DNA of 64,000 bases from Malus domestica. Lineage: Eukaryota; Streptophyta; Magnoliopsida; Rosales; Rosaceae. The position numbers were made by a program, and so were the translations under genes. Shown piece after piece: positions 2,603 to 58,013 of this stretch (within the stretch, counting starts at the first letter, position 1; each line of letters starts with the position of its first letter). The stretch lies in NCBI RefSeq assembly GCF_042453785.1, contig NC_091670.1, positions 40,373,501-40,437,500 on the forward strand, read 5' to 3'. Below the pieces are notes generated by a model. It was not told where the DNA came from. It saw nothing but the letters and a program-made list of their open reading frames with translations, and ran no database searches.

Positions 2603-2653
2603 CAACCTCCCTGATCTTTATCAATGTACCCAACAAAACCAGAGAGCTAAGCC

Positions 2654-4435
2654 ATGACGTCTCTCTCACCTCCGGTAGTCACCACCCCCACCGTTCCCAA
2701 CCCCGCCACAAAACCTCTCTCCCCCTTCTCTCAAAACAACTCCCAAGTTTCCCTACTCACAAAGCCCAAGCGTTCCTTTGCACGTAAGGTCTCATGCAAA
2801 GCCACAAACAATGACCAAAATGATCAAGCACAGTCCAAACTAGACAGGAGAAATGTGCTTCTTGGTCTTGGAGGTCTATACGGCGTGGCGGGTATGGGCA
2901 CAGACCCGTTCGCTTTTGCCAAGCCTATAGCCCCACCAGACGTATCTAAATGTGGTCCTGCAGACTTGCCACAGGGTGCAGTGCCCACCAACTGCTGCCC
3001 GCCGCCTTCCACAAAAATCATTGACTTTAAGCTGCCTGCCCCCGCCAAACTCCGCATCAGGCCACCGGCTCACGCCGTTGACCAAGCCTACAGGGACAAA
3101 TACTACAAAGCGATGGAGCTCATGAAGGCCCTACCCGACGACGACCCACGTAGCTTCAAGCAACAGGCAGCCGTGCATTGCGCTTATTGCGACGGCGCCT
3201 ATGACCAAGTCGGGTTCCCAGAACTCGAGCTCCAAATCCACAACTCATGGCTCTTCTTCCCGTTCCACCGTTACTACTTGTACTTTTTCGAGAAGATCCT
3301 AGGCAAACTCATTAACGACCCGACATTCGCTTTGCCGTTCTGGAACTGGGACTCGCCAGCCGGCATGCCACTGCCCGCGATTTACGCTGATCCAAAGTCC
3401 CCTCTCTACGACAAGCTCCGATCTGCCAATCATCAGCCCCCGACTCTGGTCGATCTCGATTACAACGGGACCGAGGACAATGTGTCAAAGGAAACCACAA
3501 TCAACGCCAATCTCAAAATCATGTACAGGCAAATGGTGTCCAATTCCAAGAATGCTAAGTTGTTCTTTGGGAACCCGTACAGGGCAGGGGACGAGCCTGA
3601 CCCTGGTGGCGGCTCCATCGAGGGGACACCACACGCGCCGGTTCATTTATGGACCGGTGACAACACCCAGCCCAACTTTGAGGACATGGGGAATTTTTAC
3701 TCCGCTGGTCGGGACCCCATATTTTTTGCACACCATTCGAATGTCGATCGAATGTGGAGTATTTGGAAAACTCTTGGAGGTAAGAGAACTGATCTTACTG
3801 ACTCGGACTGGTTGGACTCCGGATTCTTGTTTTACAACGAGAACGCAGAGTTAGTCCGAGTCAAGGTCAGGGACTGCTTGGAGACCAAAAATCTTGGGTA
3901 TGTATACCAAGATGTGGACATTCCTTGGCTCAGCTCCAAGCCAACACCGCGAAGGGCGAAAGTTGCATTGAGCAAAGTAGCGAAGAAGCTGGGAGTTGCA
4001 CACGCAGCTGTTGCGTCGTCCAGCAAGGTGGTGGCAGGCACTGAGTTCCCGATAAGTCTGGGGTCGAAGATAAGCACGGTGGTGAAGAGACCGAAGCAGA
4101 AGAAGAGGAGCAAGAAGGCCAAGGAGGATGAGGAGGAGATATTGGTGATTGAGGGAATCGAGTTTGACAGGGACGTGGCTGTGAAGTTTGATGTGTATGT
4201 GAATGACGTCGATGACTTGCCGAGTGGGCCTGACAAGACGGAGTTTGCCGGAAGCTTTGTAAGTGTGCCGCACAGCCACAAGCACAAGAAGAAGATGAAC
4301 ACTATTTTGAGGTTAGGGTTGACAGATTTGTTGGAGGAAATTGAGGCGGAGGACGATGACAGCGTGGTGGTGACTTTGGTGCCCAAGTTCGGCGCTGTCA
4401 AGATTGGTGGTATCAAGATTGAATTTGCTTCTTAG
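2654..4435 (+). CDS. PPO: Polyphenol oxidase (catechol oxidase), plastid precursor
   Basis: This is a single-exon, 593-residue enzyme that oxidises o-diphenols to quinones in the thylakoid lumen, the reaction behind tissue browning. Residues 1 to about 88 form a two-part transit peptide: a Ser/Thr/Pro-rich stroma-targeting part, then a twin-arginine (R65-R66) and hydrophobic thylakoid-transfer segment with likely cleavage after the AFA motif near residue 88. The copper A ligands are H175, H196 and H205, with C179 placed for the usual Cys-His thioether to H196. The copper B ligands are H327, H331 and H361. The DWL linker domain begins near residue 386 and the C-terminal domain carries the KFDVYVND motif (511-518). 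A Lys-rich stretch (479-490) separates the core from this domain. Length and lack of introns fit apple/pear PPOs. All catalytic residues are present, so the gene looks functional. Confidence 0.97.
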   Translation: MTSLSPPVVTTPTVPNPATKPLSPFSQNNSQVSLLTKPKRSFARKVSCKATNNDQNDQAQSKLDRRNVLLGLGGLYGVAGMGTDPFAFAKPIAPPDVSKCGPADLPQGAVPTNCCPPPSTKIIDFKLPAPAKLRIRPPAHAVDQAYRDKYYKAMELMKALPDDDPRSFKQQAAVHCAYCDGAYDQVGFPELELQIHNSWLFFPFHRYYLYFFEKILGKLINDPTFALPFWNWDSPAGMPLPAIYADPKSPLYDKLRSANHQPPTLVDLDYNGTEDNVSKETTINANLKIMYRQMVSNSKNAKLFFGNPYRAGDEPDPGGGSIEGTPHAPVHLWTGDNTQPNFEDMGNFYSAGRDPIFFAHHSNVDRMWSIWKTLGGKRTDLTDSDWLDSGFLFYNENAELVRVKVRDCLETKNLGYVYQDVDIPWLSSKPTPRRAKVALSKVAKKLGVAHAAVASSSKVVAGTEFPISLGSKISTVVKRPKQKKRSKKAKEDEEEILVIEGIEFDRDVAVKFDVYVNDVDDLPSGPDKTEFAGSFVSVPHSHKHKKKMNTILRLGLTDLLEEIEAEDDDSVVVTLVPKFGAVKIGGIKIEFAS

Positions 4436-24363: not shown

Positions 24364-25748
24364 CGGAAGAAGAACAAGAGTTACTTACAAATTTTGTAAA
24401 ATGTTCAATTTTTGAGCTTTCGCTATCTCTATTCTGTGCCAAAGTAAGGAAAATGATATGAGTCAGAAGGGTTCTCTTGGACTTGGCCTTGGCCTAACCA
24501 TCACTCCGGGACCCATATGGAAGAGGTCCTCCCACTAAGGAAAATGATTTAAGCAGAACAATGAAGAACCTATAAAAATACTAACATGGCCGTCAACGTA
24601 GTCAGAATGGGGTTATCTATGTTTGTCATAACATCTTCGAAATGTCCTATTGGAAGCTTAAGCAAGTTTTATAATGTTTTATAGAACTTAGTAAAACCGG
24701 TTAAAAATCGTGAATTATTGGCTGACATACCATTCTTGAGGTTTCACACTATTTTTTCAGTGACTATTAAAGAAAATGCTATAAGCCAGGCATCATGCAT
24801 TGCTAAGGTTAAATGTCTTTGTTGGGTTTCCAGGAATTGATCGTGTAGACAGTGGAAGAGATTCAAGAGAATTAATATATATGTGAAAGGAAATTAAGAA
24901 ATTACTTAATTAGAAAAGTATTTATTTTCCTTCCCCCCATTCTTTTTCGTCCACAGGTACTGAACAAGACTAATGGCTCAATCAAATATTATTTAAGAAG
25001 GAAAGTTACTGGTAATGAAGGAATTAGACCACTCAACCAATTGCCGTATTTGCAGTTTTTAAGCACATGACAGAATACCAAAAAGCTCTGAGTTTGGTCT
25101 CAACCTCTCTTAAACTGGCTTTGAATGAAAAAGTAAATAAAAGAACGGAAAGTAAAGCATTTAGGATGTGCATAATATATATTTGTGTTTAGCCAAATTG
25201 ACTAGAGCATTTCTCCGTTTATACTCAAGTTTAAATTCTCATCCCTGTTGGTTGGTTGAATTGTGTAAAATTTAGAATTTACCTGCTGGGATAGTCCAAC
25301 CCAACATTATAAAATGCATCTTTGATTTCTCAAGGCTGGTGCTGCATTCAAAGATCAGATTAAGCTGTTTGGAAAAATAATGATAATAAAAAGTAGGCTT
25401 AAATGTTAACATGGTCTTTGTGTTTTACTCTATCGGCCAATTTAGTCATTGTGTTTTTAATTCGGTCAAATTTGTCCCTGTGTTTATATTCGTTAGCTAA
25501 TTCAAGACAATCCGTTAAAGAACTGTTAAAATTGACATGTGCTAGGCACGTGAGAGGACAAAAATGTAATTTTATTGTAAACCCACTAAATACAAAAAAT
25601 AAAAATAAAAAATAAAAAATAAACATGGAAGACCTTTGAATCTATTTCTTTCCCATACATATAATATGGATTATCAACATGAATCAGCATCCAGTTCACT
25701 AAAGCTGCATGTGTCAGTTAAAACCACTCACCAATCAGGCAACAAACT

Positions 25749-25910
25749 TCAAACATCGAGTATCATTGTGTATATTCTGGCAACGACCCGAGCAGAAGAG
25801 AAGTTCCATAAATCATCATCGTCAAGAGAAGCTTCATCATCGTCGTTAACTTCTACCGTCTCCAAACCAGCATTATCATTTTCCAAAGCTTCAAGCCGAG
25901 CAAGGGCAGC
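25749..25910 (-). pseudogene. Captured SWC6 (SWR1 complex subunit 6)-like exon fragment
   Basis: On the minus strand the frame reads AALARLEALENDNAGLE, then an acidic stretch NDDDEASLDDDD, and ends at a stop at 25749. This matches the N-terminal part of plant SWC6/SEF, a zinc-finger HIT subunit of the SWR1 chromatin remodeller (Arabidopsis: AAIARLEALENDN, then DDEEASLDEDD). It is preceded by a pyrimidine-rich stretch and an ag, like a splice acceptor, so the capture probably came from genomic DNA with its intron edge. The zinc-finger part is absent and it cannot make a functional subunit. Confidence 0.75.
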
Positions 25911-26190
25911 CTAAAACACCAACCAGCATAACCCATCAACTCTAATAAACTTATACAAATTCACAGAAAAAACAAAAAACACCAAAATATATAAATATAT
26001 ATGTGGAAACCTCTCTAGGTCGGATTAATCTGGAGCTCACTGTGAGTGGTTCAGCTAAAAGTCGTCGTCTTTTATGAAATTAAGATTTGGGTAGTCCATC
26101 AATTCGCAAAATATATCACAAAAATCAGAGACAATTGTATCAGCTAGAATATGAGAGAGAGAGAGAGAGAGTCGATGAGGCTGTACCTCA

Positions 26191-26319
26191 TCACCTGGCG
26201 CACCACCGGACCTTCCCTAGGACCTCCGGGTGTGAGTCGAGCAGAGTCACCGCCCACAACAGCGATGACGTCGAAGTGTCCTGAGCCGTGAAGAGGAAGT
26301 CGATGAGGCAGAGGATCTG
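26191..26319 (-). pseudogene. Captured CYP710A (sterol C-22 desaturase)-like fragment
   Basis: The minus-strand frame reads [18 protein letters not shown], then [14 protein letters not shown], and ends at a stop at 26191. This is the I-helix oxygen-binding region of plant CYP710A (family form [18 protein letters not shown]), the P450 that makes stigmasterol from sitosterol. Only about 40 residues are present, with no haem-binding Cys motif, so it is a captured piece and not a gene. Confidence 0.8.
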
Positions 26320-27092
26320 GATATTAAGGAGAGGGAAGGGAGGCGGTGGAGGCTACAGGAGAGAATGGGTATAAGAGAGGAGCGGCTACGGGAGAAAGAG
26401 AAAGGGTAGAAGCTCTATTTTGTGACGACGCCGGAGAAGCAGCGGGGAAGACGGTGGAGAAGCCATGGTTAGGTTGCTGCAATAAAATTACGTTTTTGTT
26501 CTCTCACGTGCCTAGCACATGTCAATTTTAACAATCTTTTAACGAATTGTCTTGAATTGACTAACAGATATAAACACAGGAACCAATTTGGCCAAATTGA
26601 AAACACAGGAACTAATTTAACCGATAGAGTAAAACATAGGGACCATATTGACATTTAAGCCTAAAAAGTAATAGGAAGGTTTACTTTCATTGATGATCAA
26701 TCATAAGATTACAACCGGTATTTATACAGTGGCTTTACACACAAGATAATGCCAAATTATCCTAACAACCTGCAGTCCTATAACTACCAAATCAAACAGA
26801 ATAATAAACTGAAAAATACAAAGCCAAACAATGTGAACTAAGTTTTATCTTTTACAATAGAATTCTCCTTAATAAAAAGAACCAAACCTTTAAATGGAAT
26901 TTATAAAAAAATAAGCACATTAATCAACACTTAGTAATAATCCAATCATCAACATCTACATCATTTGGTTTACAAAATTGGGTCTCCTAGTGTCACCTTA
27001 TTTATTACCGTTAGATAAGTTTAAATTTTGAAATGTATGTAGTGAATAGACAGAAATTTTAAAATTTAAACTCATCCAACAATGATAAATAG

Positions 27093-28032
27093 GCGAAAAA
27101 CTTGTGTGAGGCTTAACTTGCCACTGAACGATGCTGAGTGGCACTAGCATCCACTCGAAACTTGTCATGTGGCAACCTTTAAATATAATTTTACCATAAT
27201 TTCATAGTTAAAGTGTTTGTAATAAATATTATTCCTAATTAATATTCTAATTCATCTAATATTTTATAATTGTCCTTTCTTTCTCTGTCTCCTTTTCTTC
27301 TCAGCTTGTCTCATTCCTTTTCTTGCATTTCTTCAAAAATATATGCAGCAATAGAGAGAAAAAAAGAATTCACTTCAGAACCAAAGAAACTATCAATCGT
27401 GTTGAAAATCAACCACGTACCTATAAAATCCTCGCCTACATACATGTTGAGCCAATAGAATCATAGAAGTATCTTTATTTGTACATTTTGTTATCTTCTT
27501 ATGGGGTTTGAATTTCTGTACGGTAAATTATGAGAAAATTTTCGTTTGAAAATGGTAGATTCAATTTGTATCATTTTTGTTGAATATTAGAGATTCGTAG
27601 GTTAATCAAGTCAAAGTTCATATGATAAAATCAGCTACTGAATTGAAATAAAAAGGACAAAATCAGTTACTTTCTAGTTTCTAGAATATGAAAAGTTAGA
27701 GAAGGTGGGGGTCTCAATTTTTGTTTTTGTTTTTTTTTGTTTTTGTTTTCAACGAAAAGCAACAAAACAAGAGGAGGGGGAAGAGAAGAAAATATGCGGC
27801 TGGGAAGAAAATCTGACAAGGCAAAGGAGAGGAGGAACTGAGGAAAAAAAATGGGACATTAGATAATTTTAATGGTGTAATTATTTAGTAGAAAATCGTA
27901 TTATGAAAATTTTAAATATAAATTATTACACATATTGTACATAATGCTTACTAGGCATGTTTTGAGTAAATGGTAGTGTAGTGCCACTCATCATTGTCTA
28001 GTGGTAAGTCTAGCCTCACATAAGATTTTCTT
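27093..28032. mobile_element. MULE-like foldback element with 9-bp target-site duplication
   Basis: The left end (gaaaaacttgtgtgaggctt) pairs with the reverse complement of the right end (gaaaatcttatgtgaggcta). The shared sequence continues through tgagtggcac, about 60 bp or more. The same 9 bases, gataaatag, flank both sides (27084-27092 and 28033-28041). No captured gene was recognised in the interior, which has CT-rich and poly-T stretches. Confidence 0.75.
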
Positions 28033-29518: not shown

Positions 29519-29652
29519 CTCTCTCACCCACAACCAAAATCGTAACCCTTAGGAAGTACAAACGAAAAACACAAACCCTCAACCGAAACGGAAAGTACAT
29601 AAAAACCATATCTCATATCTCATCATTTTTTTGTTAGCTTCTTCAAGGAGCC

Positions 29653-30665
29653 ATGCAGCGTTCACCAGCTTTGGTTCGCAATTTCCTCCGCCAGGGAAGC
29701 AACCAAATCCTAACCGTTAAATCACACCCGCCATGCGACGTGTTCATTAACCACCGGGGGATCGACACCAAGAGAACCGTGGCCGGATTGCTCTTTTACC
29801 ATTTCTCAAGGCTCAACTTGCATCCTTTCTTGGACAGCAAGAACATGAAACCTGGGGACAAGTTGTTCGACAAAATTGATGCGGCGATCCACAAATGTAA
29901 GGTGGGGGTTGCCGTGTTTTCGCCTCATTATTGCGAATCTTACTTTTGCCTCCATGAGTTGGCTCTGCTCATGGAGTCTAAGAAGAGGGTGATACCAGTT
30001 TTCTGTAATGTAAAGCCGTCTCAACTTAAGGTCAGGGACAATGGAACTTGCTCCCCAGATGAGCTAAAAAGGTTCAGTTGGGCACTTGAAGAAGCTAAGT
30101 ACACGGTTGGACTCCCTTTCGACTCCTGTAAAGGGTAAGTATATATCGTTATATCATAAGGAATTATTAGATTGTCATTCTTTATTAATTTCTTATAATA
30201 AAGTTGTAAAATATATCAATCCTAAGTAAGTGAATGCATGGGTTTCATATGTGTTTTTCTTTGTCTATAGATCTATACCTTTTCTTTTGTAAGAAAACTT
30301 GGAAGTAGAGAAAGTTATATTGATATGAAAAATAGTTACACTTAGTTAGGGAACATCAATATTACCCTCAGAATGCAAGAAAAAAATATATAAAAGAAGT
30401 GAAGGACATAAACCTAAGCCTTCTTGAAGCCCAAAAAAACATTATAAAAAAAGAGGAGGCATAAGACCAAACTTCTAAAATAGAATCTATTCGCACATAT
30501 AATTGTTATCGGAATATGCACTAGGTTTATTTGATCGAACACTACTATTGATTTTTGCTAATTTCGTGATGTTTTGGGTATTTTAGGAACTGGTCGGAGT
30601 TCCTAAAAGAGGCTTCTCATGCAGTGCTGCAGAACTTGGTTGAGGTAGAAGAAGGAGCATACTGA
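29653..30665 (+). CDS. TIR-only protein (TX type), probable NADase signalling enzyme
   Basis: Two exons, 29653-30134 and 30587-30665, join in phase to give 186 residues. The protein is a single TIR domain with a short N-terminal extension and no NB-ARC or LRR part. The core runs CDVFINHRGIDTKRTVAGLL (28 onward), then DSKNMKPGDKLFDKID, then FSPHYCESYFCLHELALLME. The conserved catalytic glutamate of plant TIR NADases is E102 in the HEL motif. It belongs to the small, conserved clade of plant TIR-only proteins that includes the Brachypodium 2'cADPR synthase BdTIR, whose members cleave NAD to immune signal nucleotides. The second exon encodes a helix-rich tail (NWSEFLKEASHAVLQNL). It looks intact and expressed-type, with good donor (gtaagt) and acceptor sites. 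No neighbouring NLR gene is seen. Confidence 0.92.
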
Positions 30666-35046: not shown

Positions 35047-36192
35047 TAGTAAATTACACAAAACTACCTCAACTATAGGTCGAACCATAATCTCATATCT
35101 TATGTTTTAAGCATTGCAATGTCATACCTTAACTTATGGATTCGTTGCAATGTCAAACTTCCTTTAAAATTTTTGTTTAAATGATGACATGACAGGAGCG
35201 GGGTCCATCCTTTTCCCAATTAAAATTAAAAAAAAAATTAATTAAGATAAATTATTAATTTTTATTTAGTAATTAAATTAATTAAAAATTCTCCAAGTTG
35301 CCTCCACCACCCTTCTCCTCCCCTTGCCGACTCCCCTCCCTAATACCAGTAGCGTCCACCCACCTATCCCTCCCTTTCTCTCAGGTCTCCCTCTCTCCCA
35401 TTTATCTTTCATTTTCATTGTTTATCCCCTTCTCTCACGTCTCTCTCTCCATTTCTAACGAACTGATAGATGAGGAAAAGAGAGAAAAGATGGCGTGCCA
35501 GCCCGTGGAATCACAAGGCGGCGATGGAGGTGGGTGGTTTCTGGGAACCGTTTAACTGGCGAAATACCCAAGTCCTTTTCGATTTTCGCCATAACCGCTT
35601 TCGCCCAAAATCCGGGTCTATGCGGGTGTCCGGTGCAGAGCTGCAAGGGCACATCAAATGACCCGACCCGGCCCGGACCGAATTTGAGGCATTTCTCGCA
35701 ACACCAACTGGAGTTTTCTAAGGTTCCCTCCTCACCATCAACGGCGGTGTATCAACCGGTATGGAGGAACTCGACGAGGCGGTCGGAGTGGGAGCCCGTG
35801 GGCGGCGAAGAGAGCGTTGAGGTCGAGGGAGATGTCACTGGGGAACAGCGCAGGAAATTCGGCTGTGTTTAAGGAGAGAAAGGGAGAAGGGGGACGGAGG
35901 AAGGAGTGAGGGGAGGAAGAATGGGGACGGAGGAAGAAGCGATAGCAGGGAGTGGGGGTAAGGAAGAGAGTTTTTAATTATTTAATTAAAATTAATTTTT
36001 TATTTCAGTTGGGAAAAGAGTGGATCCTGCTGGTGCCACGTCATCATTTAACAGACAAATTGATAAAAATTTTAACAGAAATTTGATATTGCAATAGATT
36101 CATAACTTGAAGTATGACATTGCAATGTTTAAAACATGAGTTATGAAATTGTAGTTCAACTCATAGTTGATGTAGTTTTGTGTAGTTTCCTG
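35047..36192. mobile_element. Pack-MULE carrying an LRR receptor kinase fragment
   Basis: Terminal inverted repeats of about 160 bp: the left contains attacacaaaactacctcaac and the reverse complement of the right contains actacacaaaactacatcaac. The same 9 bases, taagaaaaa, flank both sides (35038-35046 and 36193-36201). The interior is GC-richer than its surroundings and contains a captured LRR-RLK piece. Other interior DNA (35690-35950) is also gene-like in composition but unrecognised. Confidence 0.88.
35543..35684 (+). pseudogene. Captured LRR receptor-like kinase fragment
   Basis: The frame reads NRLTGEIPKSF and then AFAQNPGLCGCPVQSCKG. This is the end of the last leucine-rich repeat and the C-terminal cap (N-P-x-L-C-G) found just before the transmembrane segment in LRR receptor-like kinases of the GEIP type. 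No signal peptide, membrane helix or kinase part follows. The frame stays open to 35872 but the remainder matches nothing I know. It is interpreted as a transduplicated gene piece. Confidence 0.7.
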
Positions 36193-38735: not shown

Positions 38736-39701
38736 GGGTTTTTATCACAAATAGTCCCTGACATTGATCAAACACATCATTTTGGTCCCTGACATTGAAA
38801 ATCAATAGAAATGGTCCCTGACATTGATCAAACACATCACAAATGGTCCTTCCGTTAAAAACTTTTTGGCAATTTTCAAAGTTTCGTAACTCAATCGTTT
38901 CTTAACCAAATTCGACCCATGATATATCAAAATGAAGATAGGAAAGTGTAGAACAAGATTATACCTATTTGGAAGCCCAATGGTTGCCGGAGATTGCCGG
39001 AACATAGCCTCAAATGTGACTGGTCCGCGAAAAAACTGTAAAACTCGCCTGAAATGGGGTAAACTTTAAACATTCATAACTTCTTCAATACTCAACGAAA
39101 TTGAGTGATTCAAAAATGAAAATCATATTTCTCAATGAGAAAAAGAGAATGGTATCTTTATTGACAGCTAATTTACCGTGGTTTGACCGGAAAATGGCTC
39201 AAACTTGGATAACCATTTTCGAGTTAGCCAATTTCGAGTCGTTTTACGGCCAAACTACGACGAGTTAGCCATCAAGAAAGCTACCATTCTCTTAGTCTCA
39301 TCGAGAAGTATGATTTTCGTTTTTGAATCACTCGATTTCGTTGATTATTGAAGAAGTTATGAATGTTTAAAGTTTACCCCATTTCAGGCGAGTTTTCCAG
39401 TTTTTTCGCAGACCAGTCACATTTGAGGCTATTTTCCGGCCATCTCCGGAAACCATTGGGTTTCCAAATAGGTATAATCTTGTTCTACACTTTCCTATAT
39501 TCATTTTGATATATCATGGGTCGAATTTGGTTAAGAAACGATTGAGTTACGAAGCTTTGAAAATTGCCCAAAAAGTTTTTAACGGAATGACCATTTGTGA
39601 TGTGTTTGATCAATGTCAGGGACCATTTCTATTGATTTTCAATGTCAGGGACCAAAATGATGTGTTTAATCAATGTCAGGGACCATTTGTGATAAAAACC
39701 C
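38736..39701. mobile_element. Foldback MULE-like element (family F) with 9-bp target-site duplication
   Basis: This 966-bp block is almost one large palindrome: the left half, beginning gggtttttatcacaaatagt, is the near reverse complement of the right half. The same 9 bases, taaaataaa, flank both sides (38727-38735 and 39702-39710). A diverged relative lies at about 57107-58013. There is no transposase and no recognised captured gene. The open frames inside are by-products of the palindrome. Confidence 0.88.
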
Positions 39702-46661: not shown

Positions 46662-48083
46662 ATGGAGAGCACAAATTCATCATCAGGTTCACAGCACCCG
46701 CAGCTCCCGCCGGGGTTCCGGTTTCACCCGACGGACGAAGAACTGGTGGTCCATTACCTCAAGAAAAAGGCCGCCTCCATCCCGCTTCCGGTCACCATCA
46801 TCGCGGAGGTCGACTTGTACAAGTTTGATCCATGGGAACTGCCAAGTACGTTTCTTTGGTTTTGTTTACACTATACGAACTGACCTAATTCGCGTCTGAA
46901 ATTGAATTTCAATTTGGGAAAATTTTGATTTTGGTTTTGGTGATATAGGTAAGGCGACGTTTGGGGAGCAAGAGTGGTATTTTTTCAGCCCAAGGGACCG
47001 GAAGTATCCAAATGGGGCACGGCCAAACAGGGCAGCAACTTCAGGGTATTGGAAGGCAACTGGGACGGATAAGCCTGTTCTATCATCAATCGGAAACCAC
47101 AAAGTCGGTGTGAAAAAAGCTCTTGTTTTCTATGGAGGGAAGCCCCCAAAAGGGACTAAAACCAATTGGATTATGCACGAGTATCGGCTTGTCAACAACA
47201 CCACCACCACCATCAACATGAGTTCTAGTACTACTAAGCCTTCTGATGCAGCTAACAAGAAACCCTCCCTAAGGGTATGCACTTTTTTTGTACAACAAAA
47301 AAGACATGTGTAGCACAAGATGGACTGACTGAAAGTGTACGGCATATCGTGTTATCAGGCACAGTCCACGAATAGCACTTTCACTCAAGCCATCATGTGC
47401 GACATATATCTTGTGTTCATTTTTTTTTTGTCATGACTGTATGATCTATTCCTTGTTATGTATTGTTGATCATGTTGTTGTTGTAGCTTGATGATTGGGT
47501 TTTGTGTCGGATTTATAAGAAAAACAAAGGGCCTGTGATGTCTATAGATGGTGATCATTTTCTTCACAAGGCCGAGGACTCTAATAGTTCTATGGAAGAG
47601 GGTATGTTTCTCCACCCGTCAATACTGCCAACTCAAAAACTGCCGCCGCTGCCGCCGCCACCATCATCAAAGCTGCCAACTACAGATTACACCGCGTTGC
47701 TAGAAAGCGATGATCACGAGAGCTATCTTGAGGGCATACTATCGTCAAGCGATCATCAACCAGGCTCTCACTCTCATGATCATGATCAGTTTGGCACTAT
47801 ATCAACTTCCATCTCAAAAAGCAGCCTACCCTTGAAACGTCATCTTCCTTCGCCGTTTTGGAACGACGTGGGATCGATAGGGACTGCTGCTGCTACTACT
47901 ACTTCATCGAGCAAAAAGTTTCATGCTGATCTCATCAATGAAAACAACTCATTTGTTTCTATGCTGAATCAGACGCCACAGGGCACGGCACCGTTTCACG
48001 CTAATGCTGCACTTCTTGAGTTGCTAGGAGATGGGGTTTTGCGCCCACAGTTTCAACTCCCAAGCATGAACTGGAATTCCTAG
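46662..48083 (+). CDS. NAC transcription factor, NAC56/NAC18 (NARS) clade
   Basis: Three exons, 46662-46845, 46949-47274 and 47487-48083, join in phase to give 368 residues. The NAC DNA-binding domain (about 15-180) shows all five subdomains: [68 protein letters not shown] with [17 protein letters not shown], and WIMHEYRL ending [12 protein letters not shown]. The intron positions are those usual for NAC genes. The variable C-terminal region is Ser/His/Pro-rich with an LLELLGDG motif and ends QLPSMNWNS, like the QLPGLNW end of Arabidopsis NAC056. That clade acts in seed coat development in Arabidopsis, and apple NAC18.1 of this group is tied to fruit ripening. Which member this is cannot be settled without a tree. 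A MITE lies in its promoter region. Confidence 0.95.
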
Positions 48084-49410: not shown

Positions 49411-50324
49411 GGAAAATTTTGATAACTAGCCATATTTTTCACCACAAAATGATTTTTAATCAACCTTTTATTATTCTTACAAATTTAACAAAAAACTCAT
49501 GAAAAAGTACTAAATTACCCCCTCCCTTCTTCTTTTATCTCTTCCCCCTCTCGAATCCCATCAGTCCACCATACCCCACCCCAATCCAACTCAACCTGGC
49601 TTTTCTCCCAAATCCACCACCACCATTGCCACACCCACTACGACCGACGCCGCCGCCATATCTTGCTTTGTTTCTCAATTTGGAAATCAAATTAAAGTTT
49701 AATCTTTCTATGCTTGCATTTTGATTGTTGGATGTTGTATTCAGTTTTGACTCTATTACTCTTTTGTGGTAGAGTAAACTCTATGAATATCATTTTTTCT
49801 CTTCATGTTTGTCATTCTTCTCCGTTTTGTGAATGTGCTGTTAGTTTTGTTGGTGATAAGGACAATTATGATGTTTCTTGCCACTGCTTCTATGGCTTTT
49901 GTTGGAATGGTTTACAAAAAATGAGAATTCAAAGTATGCAAAAATGCTTTAATGGAGGCAAATTAGAACAACGTATATTCTTATTTATTCCACATATCAT
50001 ATAAAACGATGAGATGAGAAATTGCATATTTAGATGCATTTTCAAAAATCTTCTATCGTAAGGAGAGAGCGAGATGTGGTGGCAGTGTCGGTCGTACAGG
50101 GTGCCGCGACGGTGGTGATGGATTTGGGAAAAGGGATGGAGTAGGGTGGAGTGAACTGTGGAGTGGACTGTAGAGTCGAAGAGGAAGGAGGAAGAGACAA
50201 GGGAGAAGGGAAGGGGGCATTTTAGAATTTTTGCATGGATTTTTTGTTAAATTTGTAAGAAATGTAAAGGGTAGGCTAAAAATCATTTCACGCTACAAAA
50301 TATGGTTATTTATCAAAATTTCCC
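49411..50324. mobile_element. Pack-MULE carrying an ARIADNE-type E3 ligase fragment
   Basis: The left end ggaaaattttgataactagc pairs with the right end (reverse complement gggaaattttgataaataac). Pairing continues for about 90 bp through cttacaaatttaacaaaaaa. The same 9 bases, aatgttctt, flank both sides (49402-49410 and 50325-50333). The interior contains a captured RBR ligase piece on the plus strand. Confidence 0.88.
49810..49923 (+). pseudogene. Captured RBR (ARIADNE) E3 ubiquitin ligase fragment
   Basis: The frame reads CHSSPFCECAVSFVGDKDN and then YDVSCHCFYGFCWNGLQK. This matches the in-between-RING region of plant ARIADNE proteins, whose zinc-binding pattern reads CPAPGCEYAV, then NYDVSCxCSYxFCWNC. 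One zinc-ligand Cys of the usual CWNC is replaced (CWNG) and the RING domains are absent, so it is a decayed fragment. The frame continues to 50004 without further similarity. Confidence 0.7.
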
Positions 50325-57106: not shown

Positions 57107-58013
57107 AGGCTAAATAGTCAAAATGTTCCCTGAGATTGTCCACCATCCATGATTTTAGTCATTCCGTTAAAAACTTTTTGGACAATTTTCAAGGCTTCGT
57201 AACTCAATTGTTTCTTAACCAAATTCGACTCATAATATATCAAAATGAATATAGGAAAGTGTAGAACAAGATTATACCTACTTGAAAGTTCAATGGTTGC
57301 CGAAGATGGCCGGAAAATAGCCTGAAAGGTGACTGGTCCATGGGAAAATTGGAAAACTCGCCGGAAATTGGGTAAACTTTAAACGTTCATAACTTCTTCA
57401 ATACTCAACGAAATCAAGTGATTCAAAAACAAAAATCATACTTCTCAACCAGACAAAGATAATGATATCTTTCTAGATGGCTAACTCGCCATGGTTTGGC
57501 CGAAAAACGGCTTGAAAGTGGCTAACCATTTCCGAGTTAGTCACTTTTGAGCCATTTTCCGGCCAAACCATGGTGAGTTAGCCATCAAGAAAGGTACCAT
57601 TCTCTTCGTCTGGTTGAGGAGTATGATTTTTGTTTTTGAATCACTTGATTTCGTTGAGTATTGAAGAAGTTATGAACGTTTAAAGTTTACCCAGTTTCCG
57701 GCGAGTTTTCCAATTTTCCTGCAGACCAGTAACCTTTCAGGCTATTTTCCGACCATCTCTGGAAACCAATGGGCTTCCAAATAGGTATAATCTTGTTTTA
57801 CACTTTCCTATCTTCATTTTGATGTATTATGAGTCGAATTTGGTTAAAAATCGATTGAGTTACGAAGCTTTTAAAATTGCCTAAAGAGTTTTTGACGGAA
57901 TGACCAAAATCATGGATGGCGGACAATCTCTGGGACCATTTCTATTGATTTTCAATCTCAATGACCATTTCTATTGATTATGCAAATCTCAGGAAACATT
58001 TTGGCTATTTAGC
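57107..58013. mobile_element. Foldback MULE-like element, second copy of family F
   Basis: The ends are inverted (gctaaatagtcaaaatgttc at left; the reverse complement of the right end reads gctaaatagccaaaatgttt) and the halves are near complements over most of their length. The interior matches the element at 38736-39701 (for example aacaagattatacctac and ttaaccaaattcgac). The flanks are T-runs, so the duplication cannot be defined. It lies about 200 bp upstream of the SCPL start. Confidence 0.8.

Follow-up and report, generated by a model that had tools for sequence, protein, structure and literature searches.

A Pack-MULE of apple that combines SWC6 fragments with a CYP710A fragment probably acquired second-hand from a Harbinger-like transposon

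RESULTS AND DISCUSSION

The locus and the ends of the element

The window, i.e., the whole 64,000-nucleotide stretch of Malus domestica DNA analyzed here, corresponds to C10:40373501-40437500 of the 651-Mb, 19-contig assembly that served as the genome searched. Pfam domains in the window mark a polyphenol oxidase gene (2651-4435), a TIR-domain (resistance-type) exon (29638-30138), and a NAC-domain exon (46906-47313), while a search of the whole window against Rfam at the gathering threshold returned no matches. At 25396-26661 lies an element of 1266 bp with terminal inverted repeats, a flanking 9-bp duplication, and an interior built largely of host-gene pieces (Table 1). The original prediction, made from the letters of the sequence, had described it as a Pack-MULE joining pieces of a CYP710A P450 and of the chromatin factor SWC6.

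Table 1. Features of the element and its flanks, in window coordinates
Feature	Position	Strand	Match or remark
Target-site duplication, left copy TAAAAAGTA	25387-25395	.	Equals 26662-26670
Left terminal inverted repeat, 182 nt, begins GGCTTAAATGT	25396-25577	+	85.7% to right arm; also in dispersed relatives
AT-rich stretch	25578-25664	.	First 13 nt prolong the family's inverted repeat; inner 49 nt also in copy 2
SWC6 last-exon end (FCSGRCQNIHNDTRCLKFVA-stop) and 3′ UTR	25665-25798	-	97.0% to C3 gene L010 2764-2896; 91% to C11 gene L011
SWC6 exon 2 (25812-25910, AALARLEALENDN...), slightly beyond, and 3′ part of intron 1 with real AG acceptor	25796-26002	-	90% to L010 1895-2107
SWC6 upstream region (CT repeat)	26009-26171	-	93% to L010 1506-1667
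Junction filler GCCTCATCGACT between P450 and SWC6 blocks	26170-26181	-	Exact second copy at 26298-26309
CYP710A K-helix remnant, fused to I-helix piece over an 85-bp deletion, 3 bp overlap	26181-26208	-	85.7% to L027 2798-2825
CYP710A I-helix piece	26206-26303	-	90.8% over 98 bp to intact CYP710A gene L027 2618-2715
Trihelix transcription-factor start-codon region (CCATGGCTTCTCCACCG...)	26429-26477	-	30 bp at 96.7% to C7 gene L039; C2 gene L040, 34 bp at 88% and 19 bp at 95%
Whole block common to Harbinger-like elements L012-L015 (putative second-hand donor family)	26181-26479	-	76-80% over 26181-26447 in 4/4
Right terminal inverted repeat, 182 nt	26480-26661	-	Pairs with left arm
Target-site duplication, right copy TAAAAAGTA	26662-26670	.	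Equals 25387-25395

Inverted ends of about 190 bp had been proposed; they are real but slightly shorter than that, although the match of several family relatives extends to query position 195. The two arms differ at 26 of 182 positions, and 23 of these differences are transitions. The flanking duplication is exact, as had been claimed: its two copies agree at 9/9 positions, and equal 9-mers turned up in 2 of 196847 random pairs drawn from the window. With the low-complexity filter on, the sole match of the AT-rich stretch among 38 of 40 loci (the self-loci L001 and L023 being excluded) was to a second copy of the element (L009, L002), described below. A Pfam scan of 19 distinct reading frames found no transposase within the 1266-bp element, p450 being the only domain below E 0.1. 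The inverted-repeat search reported no second pair of inverted repeats within the interior, and a 23-mer from the terminal repeat gave 0 matches against each of genome_contigs and viral_contigs.

Read inward, the differences between the arms include 19 C/T and 4 G/A, a strand-asymmetric pattern (Fisher p = 1.2e-4); the same test revealed no bias in seven further inverted repeats within the window (p = 0.053 to 1). Over 14 family arms the asymmetry shrinks to 68 versus 36 (p = 0.0012, for arms that are not independent of one another). Inward transcription from both ends may be one reading of this pattern. Preservation of the arms for hairpin pairing through G-U pairs was considered and rejected, as the C/T differences fall 9 versus 10 by direction and so display no preference.

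The window holds further inverted-repeat elements. A second probable Pack-MULE, at 35047-36192, has arms that are 76 to 82% alike and an exact 9-bp duplication (TAAGAAAAA); a plus-strand frame within it (35474-35872) matches BRI1-like 2 in PDB (E 1.2e-11) and has no Pfam match. Its ends occur at many genomic loci, and a near-complete relative lies at C5:29169230-29170365 (77 to 78%). Exact 9-bp duplications, found after trying several end offsets, also flank inverted-repeat elements at 38736-39701 (TAAAATAAA), 49411-50324 (AATGTTCTT), and 27093-28032 (GATAAATAG). Two long foldbacks, 38857-39579 (within the 38736-39701 element) and 57121-57941, have arms of 357 and 406 nt with 9 nt between the arms and are 85 to 89% alike.

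A Mutator-like family with transposase-domain relatives

Searched against the genome, the element gave 118 matches, and at least one of its arms occurs at 28 or more other loci by hand tally, a minimum given that scoring covered 40 of 292 candidates. The original prediction had named terminal repeats and flanking 9-mers shared with other copies as a check on its reading; the ends are indeed shared, and the 9-mers vary between copies, as they should. Three relatives with the same ends measure 7919 bp (L016), 7850 bp (L017), and 2729 bp (L018). Among 10 frames scanned in these three, the MuDR DNA-binding domain DBD_Tnp_Mut was found in L016 (1.1e-11) and L018 (2.6e-11), and a SWIM zinc finger was found in L017 (6.3e-8). 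A copia-type retroelement, with gag, integrase, and reverse transcriptase pieces, is nested at positions 1561-5416 of L016. All six other end-sharing elements examined are flanked by 9-bp duplications, four of them exact (copy 2, L017, L018, and L020) and two matching at 8/9 positions (L016 and L019). The inverted repeats, the 9-bp duplications, and the relatives with MuDR domains thus place the element in a Mutator-like family in a tested sense, and together with the host-gene pieces they uphold its status as a Pack-MULE.

SWC6 blocks captured from genomic DNA

Arabidopsis CYP710A1 and SWC6 proteins served as queries for tblastn; the SWC6 query itself matches ZNHIT1 in PDB (2.3e-20), and scores in 50 simulated (Markov) windows went no higher than 27.3 bits. 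The SWC6 N-terminal piece that had been predicted on the minus strand was recovered at 25910-25812 (70% to Arabidopsis SWC6, E 1.0e-11, 54.3 bits) and also matches, at the DNA level, SWC6 genes on C3 and C11. The same query matches a C-terminal piece in the window as well, so that the protein comparison supports the SWC6 identity independently of the DNA matches. Compared with PDB, this C-terminal piece aligns with the C terminus of ZNHIT1 at E 0.052, and the N-terminal piece gave no matches. The C-terminal piece with its stop and 3′ UTR, the SWC6 upstream block, a trihelix piece, and the second copy of the element all go beyond what had been noticed originally.

The three SWC6 blocks are collinear with the C3 gene. 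The upstream block stops ~105 bp before the ATG of this parent (position 1772 of L010), and the element is without exon 1 (L010 1772-1876) and without L010 2108-2763. The edge of the N-terminal piece had been called splice-acceptor-like, and the parent gene has its true intron 1/exon 2 border at the same place. Since part of intron 1 is present in the captured block, the source was genomic DNA, as had been proposed. A GT at 26010 was rejected as a true intron donor, the parent donor (L010 1877) being missing and ~6 nt of filler occupying the junction.

In 478 gap-free SWC6 columns, the element in the window (copy 1) has 20 differences to the C3 gene, 24 to copy 2, and 50 to the C11 gene; copy 2 has 30 to C3 and 55 to C11; and the two genes have 51 between them. 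Copy 1, copy 2, and C3 are grouped against C11 by 37 sites. By these distances, the capture was from the C3 lineage and postdates its split from C11, lying at about half the C3-C11 distance.

A P450 piece with a probable second-hand history

The CYP710A I-helix piece, likewise predicted on the minus strand, was detected by tblastn at 26307-26206 (82% to Arabidopsis CYP710A1, E 1.9e-11, 58.2 bits) and by its DNA match to a gene on C5; both the P450 and the SWC6 pieces therefore match genes at the nucleotide level, the test on which the prediction had been staked. Against Pfam p450, the piece scored E 5.3e-4, below the curated cut-off. The C5 gene has an open frame of 531 residues (505 aa from the first ATG) with a p450 domain (3.6e-46) and is 68% identical to the CYP710A1 query over 473 aligned positions. 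When all 35 candidates were scored, the 34-residue P450 piece was located at six places in the genome, namely, the element, the C5 gene, and four copies that are short and broken, an in-frame stop being present in three.

The remainder of the block has a different affinity. The leader, from the deletion region to 26479, does not significantly match the CYP710A gene and aligns with four dispersed elements, L012 to L015 (in L013 without the start-codon part). The start-codon piece is 92 to 94% alike in three of these four and absent from L013. The 85-bp shift of the P450 piece is repeated in L012, L013, and L015 and measures 93 in L014, and all four elements carry more of the 26181-26479 block than the element in the window does. 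Because the block recurs with its deletion junction in four dispersed Harbinger-like elements, it looks second-hand, and the most likely source of the P450 piece is a Harbinger-like transposon with a preexisting trihelix-CYP710A fusion, not a CYP710A gene itself. The joining of CYP710A and SWC6 pieces, as originally described, thus stands for SWC6, which came from the C3 gene, and needs amending for the P450, which probably did not come straight from its gene.

We consider it unlikely that both pieces were taken directly from their genes. The SWC6 half of that explanation holds, and the I-helix piece is closer to the sole intact CYP710A gene found (11/102 differences) than to the four repeats (15/102 to 21/96), which leaves two readings: the true donor copy escaped the search, or decay was faster in the four repeats. 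However, the leader and the 85-bp deletion are absent from the gene and common to dispersed elements holding more of the block, and an independent capture that yielded both leader and deletion is improbable.

The identity of the trihelix piece came from full-length genes. The frame of the C2 gene (378 residues), the counterpart of the gene on C7, contains Myb_DNA-bind_4 (E 9.2e-17), which is the trihelix type, whereas Pfam found no trihelix domain on the repeat's own trihelix-like frames. The match is short in the element; for the Harbinger-like family it is secure, since L014 matches the same trihelix genes over about 190 to 220 bp at 70 to 72%.

By hand tally, the ends of L014 (~250 bp on either side) recur at some 34 or more further loci, most of which have one end only; the tally draws on 65 matches, with scoring that covered 40 of 442 candidates. 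The donor family has inverted ends of the form GGTA..TACC, selected by hand among the listed end pairs, and 3-bp duplications flank 6 of 8 readable distinct insertions: L013 (TAA), L014 (TCA), L030 (AAA), L031 (TTA), L032 (CAA), and L034 (TAA, with a looser right end). The duplication is absent in L012 and in L028/L029, which have the same flanks and were counted once; L015 and L033 were not readable and stand outside the count. We call the L012-L015 family Harbinger-like as a putative label, resting on end shape and 3-bp duplications. L028 and L029 (C5:32.178 Mb and 32.236 Mb) lie 58 kb apart, and their identical flanks make segmental duplication probably the better explanation than two insertions.

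A second copy of the chimera

Copy 2 lies on the same chromosome at C10:24173421-24174648 and is 82.8% identical to the element over its full length. It has the same order of segments, the same filler at the P450/SWC6 junction, and its own, different, exact 9-bp duplication. The existence of this second full copy indicates that the chimera moved as a unit, in keeping with the original description of unrelated gene fragments brought together in one mobile unit. The main SWC6 deletion has a clean junction in copy 2 (parent 2118|2756), and copy 1 is ~20 nt shorter there. Substitutions alone are neutral on whether the copies had a single origin, as two sites join copies 1 and 2 against both SWC6 genes, two sites conflict, and copy 1 lies closer to C3 than to copy 2. 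A single origin is instead indicated by the common ends, order, junctions, and filler, and the history would most simply be a single assembly of the chimera followed by movement and then divergence.

Coding potential and small RNAs

Among the single-intron models tried, none gave an in-frame P450-SWC6 product, and a fusion protein was accordingly rejected; the P450 frame has no ATG. Seven single-intron models with the real acceptor keep the SWC6 frame, all of them beginning in the terminal inverted repeat and splicing out the P450 piece. Perfect matches to the C3 SWC6 locus extend over 78, 67, 63, 42, 42, 35, 31, and 23 nt, so that small RNAs against SWC6 would be possible in sequence terms, while the CYP710A gene has no perfect match of 18 nt or more. 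Small-RNA action is therefore plausible for SWC6 rather than for CYP710A, and such pressure on SWC6 would be the only function that the sequence speaks for. In the predicted fold of the minus strand, the arms are paired and the gene pieces lie in a loop, not in a long stem.

The function proposed earlier, a chimeric transcript or small RNAs acting on the parent genes, appears weak. We think it unlikely that the element functions as a chimeric gene or as a source of small RNAs repressing SWC6 or CYP710A. The longest frame, of 102 residues, does retain SWC6 exon 2 in frame, but it leaves out the P450 piece and relies on a CAC|GTGAGA donor. For small RNAs, the long perfect SWC6 matches, the predicted pairing of the arms, and the naming of Pack-MULEs among siRNA sources in maize, in the available text of a review (PMC13317346), are offset by the lack of a perfect CYP710A match of 18 nt or more and the loop position of the gene pieces. 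The element is probably decayed and silenced.

Junction filler and a model of assembly

The filler GCCTCATCGACT is an exact duplicate of a 12-mer located 128 nt away in the P450 block. In 20000 shuffles of that block, the 12-mer occurred 0 times, its first 10 nt occurred 6 times, and a 9-nt core occurred 69 times. It was likely copied from 26298-26309, with some uncertainty as to source because both trihelix genes also contain an 11-nt match.

We hold with high confidence that the element is a nonautonomous Pack-MULE whose interior was copied from genomic DNA, which transposed as a chimera, and which has since decayed and most likely makes no protein. The MuDR-type transposase of longer relatives with the same ends would have acted on its inverted ends in trans. 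The interior would have been copied as a Harbinger-like block with trihelix and CYP710A scraps plus three blocks collinear with the C3 SWC6 gene, and the small gaps between blocks and the 12-nt junction filler suggest template switching during gap repair, models of which are discussed in the consulted portions of PMC8277862 and PMC4858842. The completed chimera would then have transposed at least once, given two copies with two different 9-bp duplications, and decayed afterwards, its ends chiefly by C-to-T changes of a kind that would fit methylated DNA.

C-to-T changes are expected of methylated DNA. Across 14 arms of seven family members, with the majority base used in place of an ancestor, 104 of 169 arm changes are C to T (68) or G to A (36), with 15 T to C and 15 A to G. 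Changes in the interior are not clearly of this kind and less so than those in the arms, the deamination type accounting for 2/7 on the copy 1 branch, 7/14 on the copy 2 branch, and 1/10 on that of the C3 gene.

Two nested insertions, in which an old P450-bearing transposon and an SWC6 insertion came to lie between unrelated MULE ends, would account for an interior of distinct origins but are very improbable, as no second inverted-repeat pair was reported, the matched block is the interior of a Harbinger-like unit without its ends, and copy 2 has the same order with its own duplication.

Comparison with known systems

Pack-MULEs are known in several plants, and the mode by which they capture DNA is unsettled. 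The element resembles those of rice, maize, tomato, and Arabidopsis in its long terminal inverted repeats, 9-bp duplication, host-gene fragments, and absence of a detected transposase, as well as in its size of ~1.2 kb, its pieces of several genes, and its presence in more than one copy. In tomato, Pack-MULEs are commonest at 1000 to 1200 bp (PMC3310237, in the portion consulted), and multicopy Pack-MULEs in rice make up 36% (481/1337) according to the passages seen of PMC8277862. The captured DNA is also partly GC rich (0.55 to 0.61 versus 0.37 for the window), as in these Pack-MULEs. The element differs in that its SWC6 part is not GC rich and in that part of its interior apparently came second-hand from another superfamily. 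In the portions of the literature covered (including PMC8597121, PMC11275358, and PMC11197308), we found no Pack-MULE with CYP710A plus SWC6, nor any from apple, which is a statement about those texts and not a claim of absence from print.

With autonomous MuDR/Mutator elements, the comparison runs through the relatives that have the same ends together with DBD_Tnp_Mut or SWIM domains; the element differs in that no transposase was found in its 1266 bp. Harbinger-PIF elements of rice and maize have been surveyed for Pack-TYPE members (PMC8903248, in the portion available). The donor family L012-L015 is like such Pack-TYPE elements in that its inverted ends are short, its duplications are mostly of 3 bp, and it carries gene scraps, whereas the element in the window, with its MULE ends and 9-bp duplication, is unlike them.

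The element is thus a clear case of a known phenomenon, and the likely second-hand capture is its most interesting feature. We think it probable that gene fragments were relayed between transposon superfamilies, a Harbinger-like element having first joined scraps of a trihelix gene and CYP710A into a fusion that was later taken up by a MULE, which added the SWC6 blocks. Transposons would then draw on a common pool of circulating captured DNA, and a three-gene chimera could arise without three captures from genes. This suggests that the nearest intact gene of a fragment need not be its immediate source and that counts of donor genes by best protein match can overlook second-hand capture. With donor genes, the order of deletions, junction filler, and a sister copy all readable in one genome, a stepwise history of such an element becomes possible.
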